Positions 2,952-9,929 of a DNA stretch of 64,000 nt are shown here, piece after piece (within the stretch, counting starts at the first letter, position 1; each line of letters opens with the position of its first letter). The position numbers and the translations under genes are program-made. The notes under the pieces were generated by a model, which worked only from the letters and a program-made list of their open reading frames with translations, was not told the origin of the DNA and searched no databases. Origin of the DNA: Psychrobacter maritimus (GTDB lineage: Bacteria > Pseudomonadota > Gammaproteobacteria > Pseudomonadales > Moraxellaceae); NCBI RefSeq assembly GCF_904846345.1, contig NZ_CAJHAJ010000006.1, positions 1-64,000 of the forward strand. Reading direction: 5' to 3'.

Positions 2952-3608
2952 TTAACGTAATTCATAAGACCGAAGCAATATAGATTCCTCTATATTGCTT
3001 CTTTTTTTGGTACTGATACTCTCTTCATTGACCAAGCGCAAATCCTGAAAATCTAAAATCAATACCTCATTACGCAAGCGCTCACTAGTACGTTTATTGT
3101 GGCGTATCGGAAATCCTAAGACTTGCTTACCCTTAACCACTATCTGATTGATAATCATGGTCGGATTATTGATGGTAGCTTTTGCACTTAGCTTCTGAGC
3201 ATTGATGATGGCGGTAGCAGGATTAACCGTTGTGCTTAAAAATTTTATCTGGCGCACGCTTTTTGGCATATCACCTGCAAAAAACAATACTTGCTCTAAT
3301 GGCAAATACTGCGCGTGCCGCATTAATTCCTGACGAAATAGCAAAGGCATATCTACGTTAAAACTGTCTTCTGCTTGCCGAGAGAACGCCGTAAAATTAC
3401 TTTGTAAGTAACGTCCAAATACGCTGCTATTAATCCAGTCTTGATAAGTATCATTTTTTAACAGCTGCTTTGTGAAAGCGTCGGCATCTGCTGTGATATC
3501 TATTGTAAGCATCGCTAGTAACAGCGCCTGCGGATTGGTAAATTTTTGCTGCTGCCAGACTTGCGGATATAGGCTGCTATCGAGCAATGGTAAAGTTAAC
3601 TTGTTCAT
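2952..3608 (-). CDS. uncharacterised protein with degenerate ADP-ribosyltransferase-like core
   Basis: I do not recognise a named family, but the middle of this 218-residue protein reads like an ART-fold domain. VLFFAGD (107-113) sits where YRG is expected, FLSTT followed by NPATA (123-132) matches the STS motif, NPTMII with a KG turn (149-161) matches the next strands, and NEVLI with LRLV (180-193) matches the ExE and final strand. The catalytic Arg of the first motif is Ala here and the first Glu of ExE is Arg, so activity may be lost or changed. The last ~18 residues are encoded across the terminator of the convergent gene. No signal peptide or membrane segment is visible. The fold assignment is inference. 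Confidence 0.55.
   Translation of the reverse strand: MNKLTLPLLDSSLYPQVWQQQKFTNPQALLLAMLTIDITADADAFTKQLLKNDTYQDWINSSVFGRYLQSNFTAFSRQAEDSFNVDMPLLFRQELMRHAQYLPLEQVLFFAGDMPKSVRQIKFLSTTVNPATAIINAQKLSAKATINNPTMIINQIVVKGKQVLGFPIRHNKRTSERLRNEVLILDFQDLRLVNEESISTKKRSNIEESILLRSYELR
2972..3008 (+). terminator. intrinsic terminator of the upp/SDR unit
   Basis: A perfect 13-bp stem (2972-2984 with 2989-3001) with a TTCC loop is followed by seven T. It acts on the plus strand. It lies inside the last codons of the convergent gene at 2952-3608, which must read through the stem on its own strand. Confidence 0.93.
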
Positions 3609-3843
3609 AGACTGATATCCTTATATTTTACTTGCTGACGTTTGATTCGATTGGTCAAAGTCTATGACAAGTCGCTACTTTTACCGCTCAACTGCTTTCA
3701 ACACTTAACAAATTTTATGCTATGGTCAGTTACCTATTTTAATATAGTAGTCCTTCATTAGTGGCATAAATAATTCCACAATAAAGCATTTCGGCTAAAT
3801 CGGCTTGATAAAATTGCTTAATGAAAACAAGGTATACTGCCTT

Positions 3844-4800
3844 ATGAAGAAAAATTTAATTAACTTGCCTGCTAACTATCAGTTGAAAACGATTGACATC
3901 GCTTTGACTGACGGTACATTACTACCCGTATCTGTCATAGGCAATGGCAAACCTGTGCTGCTGCTACACGCTTATGGCATGGATGCACGTGAATTTTTGC
4001 CATTTATTTTACCTTTGGTTGGCAAATATGCATTTTACCTGCCGCACCTGCGAGGATTTGGCGCGGCAAAAGACATCAAGCTGACCCAGTTCGATTTTGT
4101 GCGCCAGTATGCCGATGATATCAGTATCGTCATTGAGCAAATTTGTTTGGCGCGTAATATAGAATCCTTACCTGTTGCCGCTATTTCGATGGGTGCCCAA
4201 GTGATGTGGGCGTATTTTGAGCGTTATGGCAGCGAAAGAGTCAGCCGCTATTTAAATATCGACCAAAGTCCTGCTATCCATAACCAGTCCGACTGGCAAG
4301 GTGGCTTGTTTGGCACGCGCCAGCAAGAAGTGTTTGATATTTTTCATGAGGTGATTGATAGGACGTTACCTTATGCTGACATCGAAAGCTTTACCCATCT
4401 GCCTTTTGCCCTGAAACGCCGTGCAACGGATGTCGAACGGCTGTTTTCTCTATTATCCGTTAATCGCACGCGCTCAAAAGCCTTTATACAAGTGATGACC
4501 TATAAAAACGACCCCAAACTTGCGCTTTATGATCATAGTATTTGGCATCATAAGATGCGCTGCTTACAAGCTTATTTAACATTACCCTATGACTTTCGCG
4601 GCGCTTTAGAGCGGGTCACCATTCCAGTGGTCAATCTGATTGGCGGGCGCTCAAAGCTATATGATGCTAAATGGCAGCAAAAAATCACCCAGATGCTACC
4701 CAATGCAACTGAGGTCGTGTTGCCGCGCTCAGGTCATGCAGTACCAATGGATGAACCTGTTGGGTTTTATAAAGTATTAAAAGGGTTTTTGCAGAATTAG
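3844..4800 (+). CDS. alpha/beta hydrolase
   Basis: 318-residue alpha/beta hydrolase. The oxyanion region LLLHAYGMD lies at 39-47, the nucleophile elbow AISMGAQ puts Ser at 115, and SGHAVPMDEP puts the catalytic His at 298. The acid is probably Asp274 or a nearby residue. The first Gly of the usual G-x-S-x-G is Ala. The start was set at the ATG at 3844. An in-frame TTG at 3805 would add 13 residues that do not look conserved. No signal peptide is seen, so it is probably cytoplasmic. The substrate is unknown. Confidence 0.8.
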   Translation: MKKNLINLPANYQLKTIDIALTDGTLLPVSVIGNGKPVLLLHAYGMDAREFLPFILPLVGKYAFYLPHLRGFGAAKDIKLTQFDFVRQYADDISIVIEQICLARNIESLPVAAISMGAQVMWAYFERYGSERVSRYLNIDQSPAIHNQSDWQGGLFGTRQQEVFDIFHEVIDRTLPYADIESFTHLPFALKRRATDVERLFSLLSVNRTRSKAFIQVMTYKNDPKLALYDHSIWHHKMRCLQAYLTLPYDFRGALERVTIPVVNLIGGRSKLYDAKWQQKITQMLPNATEVVLPRSGHAVPMDEPVGFYKVLKGFLQN

Positions 4801-4815
4801 TTGTTCATTTATATA

Positions 4816-4844
4816 AAAAAGCGACCTTAACGGGTCGCTTTTTA
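4816..4844. terminator. bidirectional terminator between convergent genes
   Basis: GCGACC/GGTCGC stem with a 6-nt loop, flanked by A and T runs on both sides. It serves the hydrolase (plus) and the DUF1653 gene (minus). Confidence 0.85.
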
Positions 4845-4876
4845 TTTGTGCAATAAATTTTAAACATTTTGAAGTA

Positions 4877-5113
4877 TTAATCAGCTAATACTTTAACTAA
4901 CTCAAATCTAGCTACTTGCTTACCATCAACTTCAACAGTTTCAGTAAACATCGCTAATGGTCGTACCCACACGCCATACTCACCGTATAGGCAGCGGTAA
5001 ACGACTAGTGATTCTTCCGTTTCTGAATGCTGCGCGGTATGCAATACTTGGTAAAGGCTGCCTTTATAATGGCGGTAGATGCCTTGGGGGTGTGAACAAG
5101 ATTTTTGGTTCAT
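4877..5113 (-). CDS. DUF1653 domain protein
   Basis: A 78-residue protein made almost entirely of a DUF1653 domain. The pattern GIYRHYKGSLYQVL near residues 11-24, then VVYRCLYG and VWVRPLAMF, is characteristic. The family is widespread and small, with no established biochemical role. It lies downstream of the micro-gene terminator and has only a weak ribosome binding site (AGCAA). Expression could come from a local promoter or from read-through. Confidence 0.85.
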   Translation of the reverse strand: MNQKSCSHPQGIYRHYKGSLYQVLHTAQHSETEESLVVYRCLYGEYGVWVRPLAMFTETVEVDGKQVARFELVKVLAD

Positions 5114-5144
5114 ATATTGTTGCTTGCTGTAAAAATAATTATCA

Positions 5145-5173
5145 ATAAAAAAGCATCTAATAACTAGATGCTT
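5145..5173 (-). terminator. terminator of the 5.2-kb micro-gene
   Basis: On the minus strand AAGCATCTA (5173-5165) pairs with TAGATGCTT (5159-5151), with a 5-nt loop, followed by a run of T interrupted once. It ends the short transcript predicted to start near 5276, and would also stop read-through from the alarmone synthetase gene. Confidence 0.85.
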
Positions 5174-5199
5174 TTGACAAAAATAAGTTGTTAGGAAGT

Positions 5200-5223
5200 T
5201 TAGCCATCGCCGTTAGGTAACAT
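5200..5223 (-). CDS. putative 7-residue micro-ORF
   Basis: On the minus strand an AGGAG (5235-5231) stands 7 nt before an ATG that opens a reading frame of only seven codons, MLPNGDG, ending in TAA. The site is better than those of most full genes nearby. A TTGACA -35 lies upstream at 5312-5307 and a terminator lies 27 nt downstream. The whole unit is about 130 nt. It may be a translated micropeptide, a leader peptide, or a small RNA with a decoy initiation site. I do not recognise the peptide. Confidence 0.45.
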   Translation of the reverse strand: MLPNGDG

Positions 5224-5281
5224 TGGAACTCTCCTGTTAAGTCGAATAAACAAAAACTATAGTATTCGTATTTAGTATCGC

Positions 5282-5296
5282 TATAGTAATACTATA
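5282..5296. promoter_or_regulatory. palindromic operator candidate
   Basis: TATAGTA (5282-5288), one centre base, and TACTATA (5290-5296) form a perfect 7-bp inverted repeat over the -10 region of the micro-gene promoter. A related half-site, TATAGTATT, occurs at about 5258-5266. The position would suit a repressor, but no regulator gene is adjacent. Confidence 0.4.
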
Positions 5297-5312
5297 CTAA
5301 TTGAGCTGTCAA
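5283..5312 (-). promoter_or_regulatory. promoter of the micro-gene
   Basis: Minus strand: -35 TTGACA (5312-5307), 18-bp spacer, -10 TACTAT (5288-5283). The -35 begins one base past the TAG stop of the alarmone synthetase gene. The -10 lies inside a perfect inverted repeat. Confidence 0.55.
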
Positions 5313-5313
5313 C

Positions 5314-7011
5314 CTATGCTTCGTTAAACAAACTTACAAATTCAGAAATAATTTCCATTATATTCAAAGCTGTTTCATGATCAAAATCATAGTCACGACT
5401 ACGAATTTTTCCTCTTAAAATTTGTGCACAACTCAAGAAATTAGTTTTATCTTCAAGAGCTATGTAAGCTCTAAGGAGAGTATCAAGAGTTTTTGCATCA
5501 GCACCGTTCAAATCGTTGAAACTAGCTTCTAAAGCTCTGAGTTCTTTCGATAATAACTCCTTATACTTGTTACTACGTGTTATATCGTAAAGTCTCGTAA
5601 GATAAAAAAGCAAATTATTTGTATAGTCTACAAAATCACTACTACTCTTATCAAAATACTCTAGACCTTTCATAGTATATTCATAGGCTTCCAAGTACAT
5701 GGTAACAATTGCATCACTATCAACTTCCTCTCGTAAGCTTTCAATTTTCAGCCAAATATAATAACCTATAATTTTAGGAGACTTAGAGAGTACGTAATCA
5801 ATATCAACCTTCTTTACTGGAAACTTCGAGTTATTGTTTTGAGCAAGACTAAAAGACTTTTTTAGAAACCTAATTCCTTTTTCAATATCCCCAATTCTAC
5901 CTAACGCTTGACCTAGTCTCATTGCAACCAAGCAATTTTCTTTATCTAACTCATGAAGTTCTAAATATAAATTTCTAGCCAATAGCAAACTTGCTTCTTT
6001 GTTAATAGACAATTGGCATAGAGCTTCATTTATACAGCAGTAGAAAGAAAAATTATCAAAGGTTTCTAGAGATTTATTAAGCATATGTGATTTTCTTAAA
6101 TCTAGAAAACTTTGAGCACAAGTTACAAGCTCATTATGTTTACCACTTAATATAGCTTTTTCTCTACATCCTGTTAATAGTATATATTTTTCAACCTCAT
6201 CTATCTCAACATCTTCTTCGAAAAAGTTACTAGAGTCAACTATGTCTTTTGGATTATCTAAAATTTTAGCTGAGTTTTTAGGGTTTAGCTCTATACGAGA
6301 CTCTTCAACTATTATGTCAGCATAATCTACACAAGCATCTACAAACTTCTTTAAAGTACTTAAATGTTGACTTAATGTAGGATGACTTGTCGAATCATTG
6401 ATATCTCTTAATCCGTACCTGTGCCTATGGTCTATTTCTCCCCAAGCATCTTCAAAAACTGTGCGAACTTGAATTTCAACCGGAATTCTAAGGCCTGAAG
6501 GTATCAACTTAGAAGATATAGCTTTGAGGTGACAAACAATATGAACACTGGAATATCCCTCTTTTATATCTTTAATTTCACAATTGATATCTATATTTTG
6601 AAAACACTCTTCAACATCAGATGTTATGTTTGAACTTGAAACATCTCCAATATAATAAATGGCTTCGGCAATATCGCATTCCATGAAAGGGTTTTTTGAA
6701 TTTCCTGAATCTTTGAGAATTTTAATAATTTGACGAATTGTTGTAACAATATCTTTTTTATATAGGACTACAAATCTCACACCAATTACATCAGTAATAT
6801 CTTCGAGACAATATTCTTCCTTTTCTTTCTTTTTCCTAATAACTTTTTCTAAAAGACCATCTTCGCTTTTTACTCTTGATTTATGAGCATAGCAAACTTT
6901 AGAAATATCATGTCCATTGAGATAGTTTACTATTTTCTGATGTGTATCTACTGCTTTACCATGTATGAACTCAACTTTTATACTTTCATCAATAGCTATT
7001 TTTTCAGACAT
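5314..7011 (-). CDS. RelA/SpoT-type synthetase domain fused to helical-repeat C-terminus
   Basis: A 565-residue protein. Residues ~15-235 are a RelA/SpoT nucleotidyl-synthetase domain: KSRVKS at 44-49, D71/D74 with GVR at 77-79, GYSSVHI at 152-158, EIQVRT at 179-184, and W190/E192/H195. No HD hydrolase domain is present, so it could make but not degrade (p)ppGpp or a related pyrophosphorylated nucleotide. Residues ~275-560 are alpha-helical with TPR-like spacing and may sense a partner or signal. The gene is clearly richer in A and T than its neighbours and sits alone between tyrS and a DUF1653 gene, which suggests transfer. Stand-alone synthetases with sensor tails are known as alarmone enzymes or as toxins in phage defence (toxSAS, CapRel). 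Which applies here is not known. Confidence 0.82.
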   Translation of the reverse strand: MSEKIAIDESIKVEFIHGKAVDTHQKIVNYLNGHDISKVCYAHKSRVKSEDGLLEKVIRKKKEKEEYCLEDITDVIGVRFVVLYKKDIVTTIRQIIKILKDSGNSKNPFMECDIAEAIYYIGDVSSSNITSDVEECFQNIDINCEIKDIKEGYSSVHIVCHLKAISSKLIPSGLRIPVEIQVRTVFEDAWGEIDHRHRYGLRDINDSTSHPTLSQHLSTLKKFVDACVDYADIIVEESRIELNPKNSAKILDNPKDIVDSSNFFEEDVEIDEVEKYILLTGCREKAILSGKHNELVTCAQSFLDLRKSHMLNKSLETFDNFSFYCCINEALCQLSINKEASLLLARNLYLELHELDKENCLVAMRLGQALGRIGDIEKGIRFLKKSFSLAQNNNSKFPVKKVDIDYVLSKSPKIIGYYIWLKIESLREEVDSDAIVTMYLEAYEYTMKGLEYFDKSSSDFVDYTNNLLFYLTRLYDITRSNKYKELLSKELRALEASFNDLNGADAKTLDTLLRAYIALEDKTNFLSCAQILRGKIRSRDYDFDHETALNIMEIISEFVSLFNEA

Positions 7012-7105
7012 TATAATTTCCAGTAGATTTAATCGTAATTTTATTATACTGTAAATCTCAATTACGCTTAAAGAATTATTTATAGAGACAGGATTTTATA
7101 AATAT

Positions 7106-8317
7106 CTAACCCACCGTCACCTTCGCATAAGCCTTTTTGCCTGCTTGGATAACGACTGTCTGACCAGAGGTTAAGCTAAAGCCTGCATCGACGACTTCGC
7201 CATCTACTTTTACCGCGCCGCGTTTAATCATATCTTTAGCAGATGAGCTGTTTTTGGCAAGCTCTGCTTGGTTTAATATCTGCGTGATAAATAATGCGTC
7301 CTGCCCTTCTAACTCTAACGTCACTTCTGGTAAATCGACTGGCAATTCGCCATCAGCTAATACGTTACCCGCTGATTTATGCGCATTAGCAGCCGCATCG
7401 GCATCATGGAAGCGCTCAATTAATTCTTCAGCAAGAATGCGTTTGATTTCTTGTGGGTTGCGACCGTTTTCCATCTCTGCCATTAACCTTTCGACTTCTT
7501 CCATCGGCTTAAAGCTTAAAAATTCAAAGTAGCGACGGATTAAAGTATCTGGCATCGACAGCAGTTTTTGGTACATGGTGCCCGGCGCATCGTAAATGCC
7601 AACATAGTTACCGAGCGACTTAGACATTTTATTGACGCCGTCTAGCCCTTCTAAGATTGGCACCGTGATACAAACTTGTGGCTCTTGACCGTAACGACCT
7701 TGCAGGGTGCGTCCCATTAGGATGTTAAAGGTTTGGTCAGTACCGCCCAGCTCGACGTCGGCTTTTAGCGCGATAGAGTCATAACCTTGCACCAATGGGT
7801 ATAAAAACTCATGGATAGCAATTGGTGTTTGCGCCGCGTAGCGTTTAGAGAAATCATCGCGCTCAAGCATGCGTGAGACGGTCAACTGGCTGGAAAGCTG
7901 AATCATATCGCCCGCTGACATATCCTTGAACCATTCAGAGTTAAAGACAATCTTGGTTTTTTCTTTATCCAAAATCTTAAAGACTTGCTCAGCATAAGTC
8001 TGCGCGTTGACTTTGATTTGCTCATCGGTTAAAGGTGGACGCGTGCTGTTTTTGCCAGAAGGGTCACCTATCTTGGCGGTATAATCACCGATTAAAAAGT
8101 AAATCTCATGACCCAAATCTTGAAAATGCTTCAGCTTATTAATCAGCACGGTATGACCCAAATGCAGATCAGGTGCGGTAGGATCAAAACCTGCTTTGAT
8201 ACGTAGCGGGCGATTCAGTTTTAACTTCTTAACCAAATCCTCTTCAGATAGGATTTCTTGTGTACCGCGTTGGATTAAGGCAAGTTGTTCTTCTAGGGTA
8301 TAAGTTTGAGTGGTCAT
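7106..8317 (-). CDS. tyrS: tyrosyl-tRNA synthetase
   Basis: Charges tRNA-Tyr with tyrosine in the cytoplasm. Class I signatures are clear: HLGH at 52-55 (the HIGH motif) and KMSKS at 230-234. Residues ~340-403 form an S4 RNA-binding domain. The 403-residue length fits the TyrZ-like branch common in Gammaproteobacteria. The start ATG follows GAGA. It is divergent from anmK across a 229-bp spacer, an arrangement also common in pseudomonads. Confidence 0.96.
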
Positions 8318-8546
8318 GATGCTCTCTTTATTGTCTTTATTTAAAGGGTAAAGCGTTTAGGCTATTTATACCAAGCACAAAAATAGGGTTAGCAGCGTCA
8401 AACTTGTTAAGTCTACTATCTATTAAATGTAGTACTTGCACTCGTTTATCACTACTCTGGTTTTTGGGAATGGGATTAAAGTTTCGTAGCCGGTAAAAGA
8501 TGTTAGAATTTGACAGATATACTAGCGTTTTTTAAGGTAAATTGCC

Positions 8547-9929
8547 ATGACCAACCCTACATCGATTGCTGATACCAATGATAATACTCATTCGACTATA
8601 AATTATGATAATAATTTAGATAACACTTTGGCTAATGGTCTAGAGAATAGCTTAGCGCATATTGACGACTTAAATTATGCCACCTTGACTGATGCGCTTG
8701 AACAAACCGTATTTGAAAACTTTGATGATGGCTTATATATTGGCATGATGTCTGGCACCAGCTTAGACGGTATGGACGTCGTGCTTTGTCAATTCGGTGG
8801 TGAAGAAAACACTCAACAACCCATGCGACTATTAGCAACTCGTAGTCAGGATTTCCCACCGCGCCTGCGAGAAGTGTTATTGGCTTTATGTCAGCCTAAT
8901 GGTGTGCAAGAATTAGTACCAACAGTGGGTGAACCAAACAGCGAATTAGACTGGTTCGGCTGGGCTAGTAAAGAATATGCTGAATTTGCCAGCGACGTGG
9001 TCAATAATTTGTTACAGCAATCCAATACTGATGTAGAGTCAGTGCTGGCAATTGGCTGTCATGGACAAACGGTGCGTCATCGTCCACAAATGGGCTTTAG
9101 CCTGCAATTGCTCGATGCCAATATCATCGCTGAGCGTACTGGTATTAGCGTGGTCAGTGATTTCCGCCGTCGCGATATGGCCGTTGGTGGTCAAGGTGCG
9201 CCTTTGGTACCTGCCTTTCACCAAGCTTTATTTGCCGCCCCTGATAGCACACGGGTGTTATTAAACTTGGGCGGTATTGCTAATATTACGGTCTTGCCAG
9301 CCAATGACAGTTCTGTTAATGATGCTGTTGTTAATAATAGTCCTGTCATTGGTTATGATACGGGTCCTGCCAATTTATTATTAGATGCGTGGACAGCATT
9401 GCATACGGATAAAGGTTACGATGCTGGCGGCGCATGGGCGCAGTCAGGCCAAGTCGTTGAGCCGCTACTTAATCAGCTGATAGAACATCCGTTTTTTGCA
9501 CGAACCTATCCGAAAAGCACGGGGCGTGAAGACTTTAACTTAGCATGGCTACAAAGCGAGCTGCAAAAATTTGACCAAGCCTCTGCTCATATTCGCTATT
9601 CATCAGCCGATGTACAGGCAACGCTTACTGAGCTGACCGCCATGAGTGCCAGTATGCAAATCAATATGTTTATTAATGCACAAGAAAATAGCTCGGTTTA
9701 CGTCTGCGGTGGCGGTGCGTTAAATGACTACTTGATGACCCGCTTACAGGCACATTTGCCCCATTGCACGGTAGAAACCACTGCCAGCTTAGGACTGAAT
9801 CCCGCTTGGGTCGAAGCCGTCGCCTTTGCGTGGCTGGCACGCCAAACTCTAATGGGCGAAACTGGTAACTTACCAGCTGTGACTGGCGCAAGTAAAGGCG
9901 TTGTACTGGGTCAGGTTTGTTTTGCCTGA
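8547..9929 (+). CDS. anmK: anhydro-N-acetylmuramic acid kinase
   Basis: Murein-recycling kinase that converts 1,6-anhydro-MurNAc and ATP to MurNAc-6-phosphate. The ATP-binding YIGMMSGTSLDGMD lies at 64-77, GCHGQTVRH near 171, and GYDTGPANLLLDAW in the C-terminal lobe. At 460 residues it is longer than the usual ~370. The first ~60 residues are a low-complexity Asn/Asp/Thr-rich extension. No later in-frame ATG would keep the core intact, so the extension appears real. Divergent from tyrS. Confidence 0.94.
   Translation: MTNPTSIADTNDNTHSTINYDNNLDNTLANGLENSLAHIDDLNYATLTDALEQTVFENFDDGLYIGMMSGTSLDGMDVVLCQFGGEENTQQPMRLLATRSQDFPPRLREVLLALCQPNGVQELVPTVGEPNSELDWFGWASKEYAEFASDVVNNLLQQSNTDVESVLAIGCHGQTVRHRPQMGFSLQLLDANIIAERTGISVVSDFRRRDMAVGGQGAPLVPAFHQALFAAPDSTRVLLNLGGIANITVLPANDSSVNDAVVNNSPVIGYDTGPANLLLDAWTALHTDKGYDAGGAWAQSGQVVEPLLNQLIEHPFFARTYPKSTGREDFNLAWLQSELQKFDQASAHIRYSSADVQATLTELTAMSASMQINMFINAQENSSVYVCGGGALNDYLMTRLQAHLPHCTVETTASLGLNPAWVEAVAFAWLARQTLMGETGNLPAVTGASKGVVLGQVCFA

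Follow-up and report, generated by a model that had tools for sequence, protein, structure and literature searches.

A stretch of 64,000 nucleotides from Psychrobacter maritimus (the window) carries, directly behind the gene for an alarmone synthetase, a promoter, a palindrome, a Shine-Dalgarno sequence (SD), a seven-codon reading frame and a terminator. Does this tiny unit make a product, and what would that product do? The original prediction left the choice between an undescribed micropeptide, a regulated leader and a small RNA. A check of the sequence found every predicted part in its place on the minus strand, including the -35 element one base past the stop of the synthetase gene (Table 1). 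We consider the unit very probably a real translated gene and a partner of the synthetase gene beside it. The best overall explanation, with a probability of about 0.55, is that the two may form a toxin–antitoxin-like growth-arrest module with an antitoxin of only 6–15 residues.

Table 1. The micro-gene, its partner gene and their surroundings in the window.
Feature	Position	Strand	Basis
Whole micro-gene unit	5312-5149	minus	
Micro-ORF ATG TTA CCT AAC GGC GAT GGC TAA (MLPNGDG)	5200..5223	minus	sequence; similar micro-ORFs beside RSH-TPR relatives
SD AGGAG, 7 nt 5' of the ATG	5231..5235	minus	sequence
-35 element TTGACA	5307..5312	minus	sequence; 1 base past stop of synthetase gene (TAG, 5316-5314)
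-10 element TACTAT, spacer 18	5283..5288	minus	sequence
Perfect 15-bp palindrome TATAGTATTACTATA spanning the -10	5282..5296		sequence
Intrinsic terminator hairpin, 12-bp stem, T-rich tail TTATTGAT	5149..5175	minus	sequence
Partner gene, 565-aa RelA/SpoT synthetase with TPR domain (RSH-TPR)	5314..7011	minus	Pfam, profile and structure searches
Alarmone-synthetase domain, residues ~10-241, RelQ/SAS1 fold	6289..6984	minus	PF04607; 5dec_B; catalytic Asp and Glu kept
TPR superhelix, residues ~266-565, putative receptor for the peptide	5317..6216	minus	consensus-TPR match; model and fold search
tyrS	7106-8317		
DUF1653 gene	4877-5113		PF07866
tyrS-DUF1653 interval	4877-8317		

The partner gene encodes a synthetase domain followed by a predicted TPR superhelix. 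The first part matches RelA_SpoT (PF04607) at E 8.9e-13, with 49 bits against a cut-off of 27. In the predicted model of the window protein (mean pLDDT 83.6, pTM 0.55) it aligns with 5dec_B (Z 17.4, rmsd 3.0, 186 residues aligned), and the C-terminal part aligns with LGN (4wnd_A, Z 19.7, rmsd 4.2, 261 residues aligned). No TPR match above the Pfam cut-off was found in the window protein; with profile A3, its C-terminal part matches a consensus TPR at E 3.1e-9. Foldseek matches include two RRNPP receptors, Rap of pLS20 (E 1.2e-4) and NprR (E 4.5e-4). The partner from a Magnetococcales locus (L083), in which Pfam likewise names no TPR, is modeled with the same synthetase and TPR superhelix (mean pLDDT 78.9, pTM 0.52; 5dec_B Z 16.3, LGN Z 17.0, Rap of pLS20 Z 14.6). 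Pfam scans of six partner proteins found no hydrolase domain.

Among the residues that all 13 relatives share are R46, K48, K56, D74, G77, R79, Y153, S155, H157, E179, Q181 and R183; in S. aureus RelP (6ewz) the counterparts of D74 and E179 are likewise Asp and Glu. Because the catalytic and other synthetase residues are invariant, the synthetase looks intact. The TPR region contains ten more invariant residues: C332, R365, Q368, W420, A442, N465, N466, Y470, D510 and T511. All but A442 fall on alternate helices. In TPR folds the A helices face the groove, and we infer from the model that these alternate helices are the groove-lining ones. Once Magnetococcales are added, all 14 proteins still share R365, Q368, N465, N466, D510 and T511.

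Relatives of the partner gene elsewhere are accompanied by micro-genes of their own. A second Psychrobacter locus, common to two other genomes, encodes a partner 45% identical to that of the window. Right after its stop follow TTGACA, an SD, the frame ATG-ACT-ATG-TTA-CCA-AAG-GGT-GAT-GCT-TAG (MTMLPKGDA) and a terminator (L072). A pattern-limited scan of an 84,980-species collection gave 13 loci; a Cupriavidus plasmid (L085) and two Magnetococcales loci (L089 and L091, from the order of genome G130) also belong to the non-redundant set of 17 RSH-TPR genes, which includes the window and several metagenome bins (Table 2). Left out of it were L070 (near-identical to L072), L071 (from the genome of L072) and L087, L090 and L092 (duplicates of L076, L083 and L084). 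Partner proteins are 24-44% identical to the window protein in 12 aligned members and 20% identical in the Magnetococcales member L083.

Table 2. Micropeptides encoded beside RSH-TPR genes.
Locus	Predicted product	Placement relative to partner gene
Window	MLPNGDG	with SD, downstream
L072	MTMLPKGDA	with SD, downstream
L073	MIVLIPEGDG	with SD, downstream
L074	MCSKPTGEG	with SD, downstream
L075	MTRPIGEGRRLI	with SD, downstream
L076	MIYPTFESSPINDG	with SD, downstream
L077	MLRPSNDG	with SD, downstream
L078	MTFSPDWNV	with SD, downstream
L080	MIYPEEGEGD	with SD, downstream
L081	MKRPNGDG	with SD, downstream
L085	GTG start, then TTAWPNNDG	with SD, downstream
L083, L084	MIRSGR	with SD, downstream
L089	MMIRSGR	with SD, downstream
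L091	MRHPHVYS	with SD, downstream
L079	MLIPNGDG	divergent, upstream, 304 bp from the start of the partner
L082	candidate MRFNQRESNAPIDGE, 15 codons	overlaps the stop of the partner; nearest AGGAG 12 nt away

An SD with an ORF of 5-15 codons lies at most 300 nt downstream of 15 of the 17 RSH-TPR genes, against 3.5 expected from shuffles (first-order, 1000 each; the downstream stretch of L079 is 209 nt long, ended by its contig). The core P-x-[G/N]-[D/E]-[G/A], a motif chosen post hoc on the very sequences counted, occurs in 9 of the 17 against 0.001 expected from the shuffles; the downstream frames of L078, L080, L083, L084, L089 and L091 were counted as lacking it. For background, 229 SD micro-ORFs were collected from both strands of 81 sequences (410,085 bp), omitting L093-L110 (picked for the motif), duplicates and six control loci. 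The motif is present in 10 of these micro-ORFs, all of which adjoin a partner gene, and in 0 of the other 219. Shorter RSH genes have no motif-bearing micro-ORF downstream or divergently upstream (0 of 6), and an SD micro-ORF of any kind follows one of the six; the five that were scanned with Pfam have RelA_SpoT and no TPR hit.

The surrounding signals recur as well. A GGAG-type SD precedes 16 of 16 micro-ORFs (L082 lies outside this set). Exact TTGACA accompanies 10 of the 16 and TTGAC with another last base four, with neither found in L074 and L091. A hairpin with a T-run occurs in 14, L074 and L078 being the exceptions; about eight of these hairpins are convincing by eye and several others are weak. 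A directly translated micropeptide gene (MLPNGDG) that forms a two-gene module with the synthetase-TPR gene is thus strongly supported by sequence comparison, and so is the micropeptide option of the original prediction, as start, SD, C-terminal codons and stop recur in unrelated bacteria. That prediction had looked to the genus for an ATG, codons and AGGAG kept between varying flanks. Such a pattern appears, in spirit, across unrelated bacteria; within Psychrobacter, only 2 of the 104 other genomes have the partner gene. The further remark that none of the parts is needed by neighboring genes is contradicted, since such micro-genes travel with the upstream synthetase gene.

Blastn with the micro-gene region matched 46 of the 105 Psychrobacter genomes at E ≤ 0.01, nearly always through the terminator hairpin and a few short stretches, and among the 105 only the window's own genome matched over the full length. 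Non-conservation, suggested by blastn alone, was rejected because relatives of the micro-gene are too diverged for this method. A second full copy was not found in the window's own genome, nor was similar DNA found in plasmids or phages. Hairpins closely similar to AAAAGCATCTA...TAGATGCTTTT, as in the terminator of the window, occur at many places in Psychrobacter genomes. A resemblance within the slot had suggested that the micro-ORF is a remnant of a GNAT gene, an idea dropped after the other micro-genes turned up.

The pair lies between tyrS upstream and a DUF1653 gene downstream. All 105 Psychrobacter genomes have tyrS, whereas the gene for the 565-aa protein is present in three (that of the window, G053 and G022). 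Among 30 of the 105 tyrS loci, 13 have DUF1653 soon after tyrS and 12 have it behind an insert several hundred bases long; in 5, the window included, it is beyond reach. Scanned inserts encode a CAP12/Pycsar TIR protein (L044), an IrrE-like peptidase followed by a DUF4411/PIN-like protein (L060) and a GNAT protein (L041); similar inserts at other loci were recognized by eye. The pair of the window is thus cargo in a variable slot that also takes genes of defense and toxin type. The interval (L040-L068 and the window) can be described as a Psychrobacter cargo hotspot that holds TIR effectors (CAP12/Pycsar, PDC-S35), pairs of IrrE-like peptidase and PIN/DUF4411 genes, GNAT genes or nothing.

The distribution of the partner gene is sporadic. 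It occurs in 6 of 398 phylum-wide genomes and 1 of 369 of the class, the window's own genome counted in both. The order of G130 has it in 4 of 48 genomes and that of G125 in 1 of 78; a 40-genome subset yielded two. Among the neighbors at other loci are genes for HsdR of a type I restriction system (L077), a phage portal protein (L075), Fic proteins (L078, L082) and an integrase (also L082), as well as for an Xre/MbcA antitoxin (L081) and IS21-type proteins (L073). Other contexts are unlike these: L083, for example, lies between AtuA-family and 4-alpha-glucanotransferase genes. Of 20 nearby ORFs scanned, 5 match no family. RSH-TPR was not found in viral contigs or phage records, the latter giving just one RSH-only inovirus gene, and there was no E. 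coli DNA match. A TPR-only profile, which missed G130, G157 and G268 (all matched by the full profile) and is not sensitive to Magnetococcales of the IRSGR type, matched 3 of 388 genomes. Each match was the RSH fusion, and the idea of swapped effectors on the same TPR domain was rejected. RelA/SpoT-type synthetases are also encoded on tiny replicons, namely the Vibrio inovirus PQ189320 (L086, 6571-7581), a 3.5-kb Klebsiella plasmid (L114, 436-1572) and Paracoccus pMARC1 (L111, 1712-2881). Their C-terminal parts are unnamed by Pfam, and no micro-ORF with the motif accompanies them.

What could so short a peptide do for a synthetase? We propose that it would be made constitutively and that its C-terminal end (P-x-G/N-D/E-G in most) would sit in the groove on the concave face of the TPR superhelix, where the bound peptide would keep the synthetase inactive. 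Being foldless, the peptide would be degraded fast. If transcription or translation stopped, for example upon phage infection, it would be depleted first and the synthetase would fire, making alarmone or pyrophosphorylating tRNA and so halting growth and phage production.

The steps of this scheme differ in how firmly they can be put. Binding of the peptide by the TPR domain is probable. In the PxGDG group, conservation of the peptide is strongest at its C-terminal residues, which would suit a groove that recognizes a free C-terminus; TPR grooves read the EEVD tails of Hsp90 and Hsp70 in this way. The near-consensus promoter and strong SD point to a constant supply, which makes an inhibitor a good deal likelier than an activator. 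Furthermore, the variable slot, the sporadic distribution and the defense-type neighbors are in line with a growth-arrest module, and we lean towards a role in defense. One binding mode may not hold for all peptides, given the variants MTFSPDWNV, MIRSGR and MRHPHVYS. A bolder version, on which we would not quite bet, is a new immune or toxin–antitoxin class in which the antitoxin consists of nothing more than a directly translated peptide of 6-15 residues, which plugs the TPR groove with its free C-terminus. Its continuous synthesis could serve as a running proof of host transcription and translation, so that shut-off by a phage would arm the enzyme, and pairs of peptide and groove (PxGDG, IRSGR, HPHVYS) may co-evolve around an invariant R-Q-N-N-D-T core of the groove.

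The proposed module resembles toxSAS (FaRel2, PhRel, CapRel) in its RelA/SpoT-family synthetase without a detected hydrolase domain, its small adjacent partner gene and its frequent location near mobile or defense-type genes. It differs in that the partner product has just 6-15 residues and the synthetase bears a TPR domain. The literature links toxSAS effectors to immunity against phages (PMC11559606) and has them neutralized by structured antitoxin domains, in an article whose main text contains neither the word "TPR" nor the word "peptide" (PMC11782079). General Pfam models found no pZFD, Panacea or Tis1-like antitoxin domain adjacent or fused in six partner proteins and 20 nearby ORFs; the Xre/MbcA antitoxin ORF of L081 lies about 1.6 kb upstream. 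The synthetase fold and catalytic residues are shared with the small alarmone synthetases RelQ/SAS1 and RelP/SAS2, for which we know of neither a TPR domain nor a micropeptide partner. The PADLOC candidate PDC-S33 matches the synthetase domain weakly (E 2.1e-5 in the window, 3.5e-9 in L080, 1e-4 in L085, 8.2e-4 in L083, none in L072) and only over a stretch of 38-54 residues, which leaves the TPR part and the micropeptide outside the profile. A literature search on toxSAS with micropeptide or tetratricopeptide, mostly without subscription papers and preprints, gave no match, and in the broader literature no title or abstract among the matches listed describes a pairing of micropeptide and TPR-synthetase.

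The alternative that survives best, which we still judge unlikely, makes the peptide an activating or signaling ligand of the RRNPP/arbitrium kind. The TPR-synthetase would be off until bound by peptide that comes from lysed neighbors or rises in some cell state, and the partner could then be an ordinary (p)ppGpp synthetase with the peptide as activator or signal. The structural matches to Rap and NprR and the product length of 6-15 residues fit this idea, as does gene order: the peptide gene lies mostly just downstream of the receptor gene, which is also the arrangement in arbitrium. A predicted TPR superhelix with a short peptide encoded alongside is indeed common to these genes and to Rap, NprR and AimR-AimP. 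Unlike in RRNPP receptors, the other domain is a RelA_SpoT synthetase instead of an HTH DNA-binding or Rap-type effector part, and the hosts are Gram-negative-type bacteria. The peptide appears to be translated at its final size, with no secretion leader or pro-region and no room for a signal sequence, whereas AimP is described as a propeptide of about 30 aa that is secreted and processed (PMC12472986). The near-consensus promoters and SDs, which suggest constant production, also speak against an activating or signaling ligand.

Inhibition by a directly translated peptide has a parallel in PatS-HetR of Anabaena, where the C-terminus of a very short, directly translated peptide inhibits a cytosolic protein, the cyanobacterial transcription factor HetR. 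The micropeptide proposed here would act by analogy, as an inhibitor with its C-terminus. The ending RSGR of MIRSGR (L083, L084, L089) is superficially like the RGSGR contained in cyanobacterial PatS, probably by coincidence.

It is very unlikely that the transcript rather than the peptide does the work, as a small RNA or as an RNA antitoxin against the synthetase. In favor of an RNA, most loci have a promoter and a terminator from which a short separate transcript is predicted. Yet codon choice varies among the 10 motif carriers: Pro is CCT, CCA or CCC, the third residue GGT/GGC or AAT/AAC, Asp/Glu GAT, GAC, GAG or GAA, and the last Gly GGC, GGG, GGT or GGA (one Ala). All three stops, TGA, TAA and TAG, are used. 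Three Magnetococcales share IRSGR with the last Arg written AGG, CGA and CGG. Since the codon changes are synonymous and the stops vary, conservation follows codons, and the small RNA of the original prediction is improbable as the working product. Moreover, the micro-gene lies on the same strand as its partner at 15 of 17 loci, leaving no antisense pairing, and across the whole window no Rfam family scores at or above its gathering threshold.

The regulated leader of the original prediction is rejected: that the unit serves as a leader peptide or attenuator of the gene behind it is barely credible. A short ORF with a terminator ahead of a gene is attenuator-like. The next gene differs by locus, however; it is DUF1653 in the window, while L081 has a GGDEF gene and L075 a phage portal gene on the opposite strand. 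The micro-gene of L079 is divergent and upstream, and in the 104 other Psychrobacter genomes blastn finds the region no further than the hairpin and short matches. The palindrome, proposed to be regulatory, was rejected as a conserved operator. Among 12 other micro-gene regions compared (L079, L082, L089 and L091 left out), 11 have no palindrome with arms of at least 6 and that of L085 is unrelated. The window contains 17 palindromes with arms of at least 7, and the one at the promoter is probably incidental.

Each part of the micro-gene alone occurs at about the chance rate (22 promoter-like sites in 3000-9000 against 17.8 expected from shuffles, and 5 terminator-like sites against 4.3), and the comparative evidence puts the whole above chance. 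That promoter, SD, short ORF and terminator came together by chance, with nothing but these single rates in its favor, has a negligible probability, as recurrence in unrelated bacteria in effect refutes it.

Genes this short fall under ordinary annotation thresholds. With partner genes of 6-15 codons hidden in this way, effectors that seem to consist of one gene may in some cases belong to two-gene systems, and a search for a TPR effector followed by an SD, a micro-ORF and a terminator offers a recipe for finding more. The module lends itself to direct tests of whether a minimal peptide controls a growth-arrest enzyme, and RSH-TPR with its micropeptide would be a ready receptor–ligand pair for structure work.

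Viral contigs hold lookalikes of the micropeptide. A scan for SD-M-x-P-x-G-D-G-stop found 17 stretches, whereas a control with the motif reversed found 0; a stricter scan gave three, namely L094, L095 and one out of frame. Twelve of the 17 were rejected as one MRPRGDG family (L096, L097, L099, L100, L102-L105, L107-L110) that overlaps, in antisense, the first part of an ORF (MKIPPARYPSPLG.., 72-84 aa, 12 of 12). L101 has an internal stop and L098 is weak, while in L095 and L106 the SD of the next gene itself seems to create the match. We do not claim phage copies of the micropeptide. The sole remaining lead is L094, a phage contig in which a gap between structural genes (3617-3652, minus strand) reads AAGGAG, 8 nt, then ATG and a frame for MRPNGDG with a stop; it may be a decoy with which the phage mimics the micropeptide, or a chance match.
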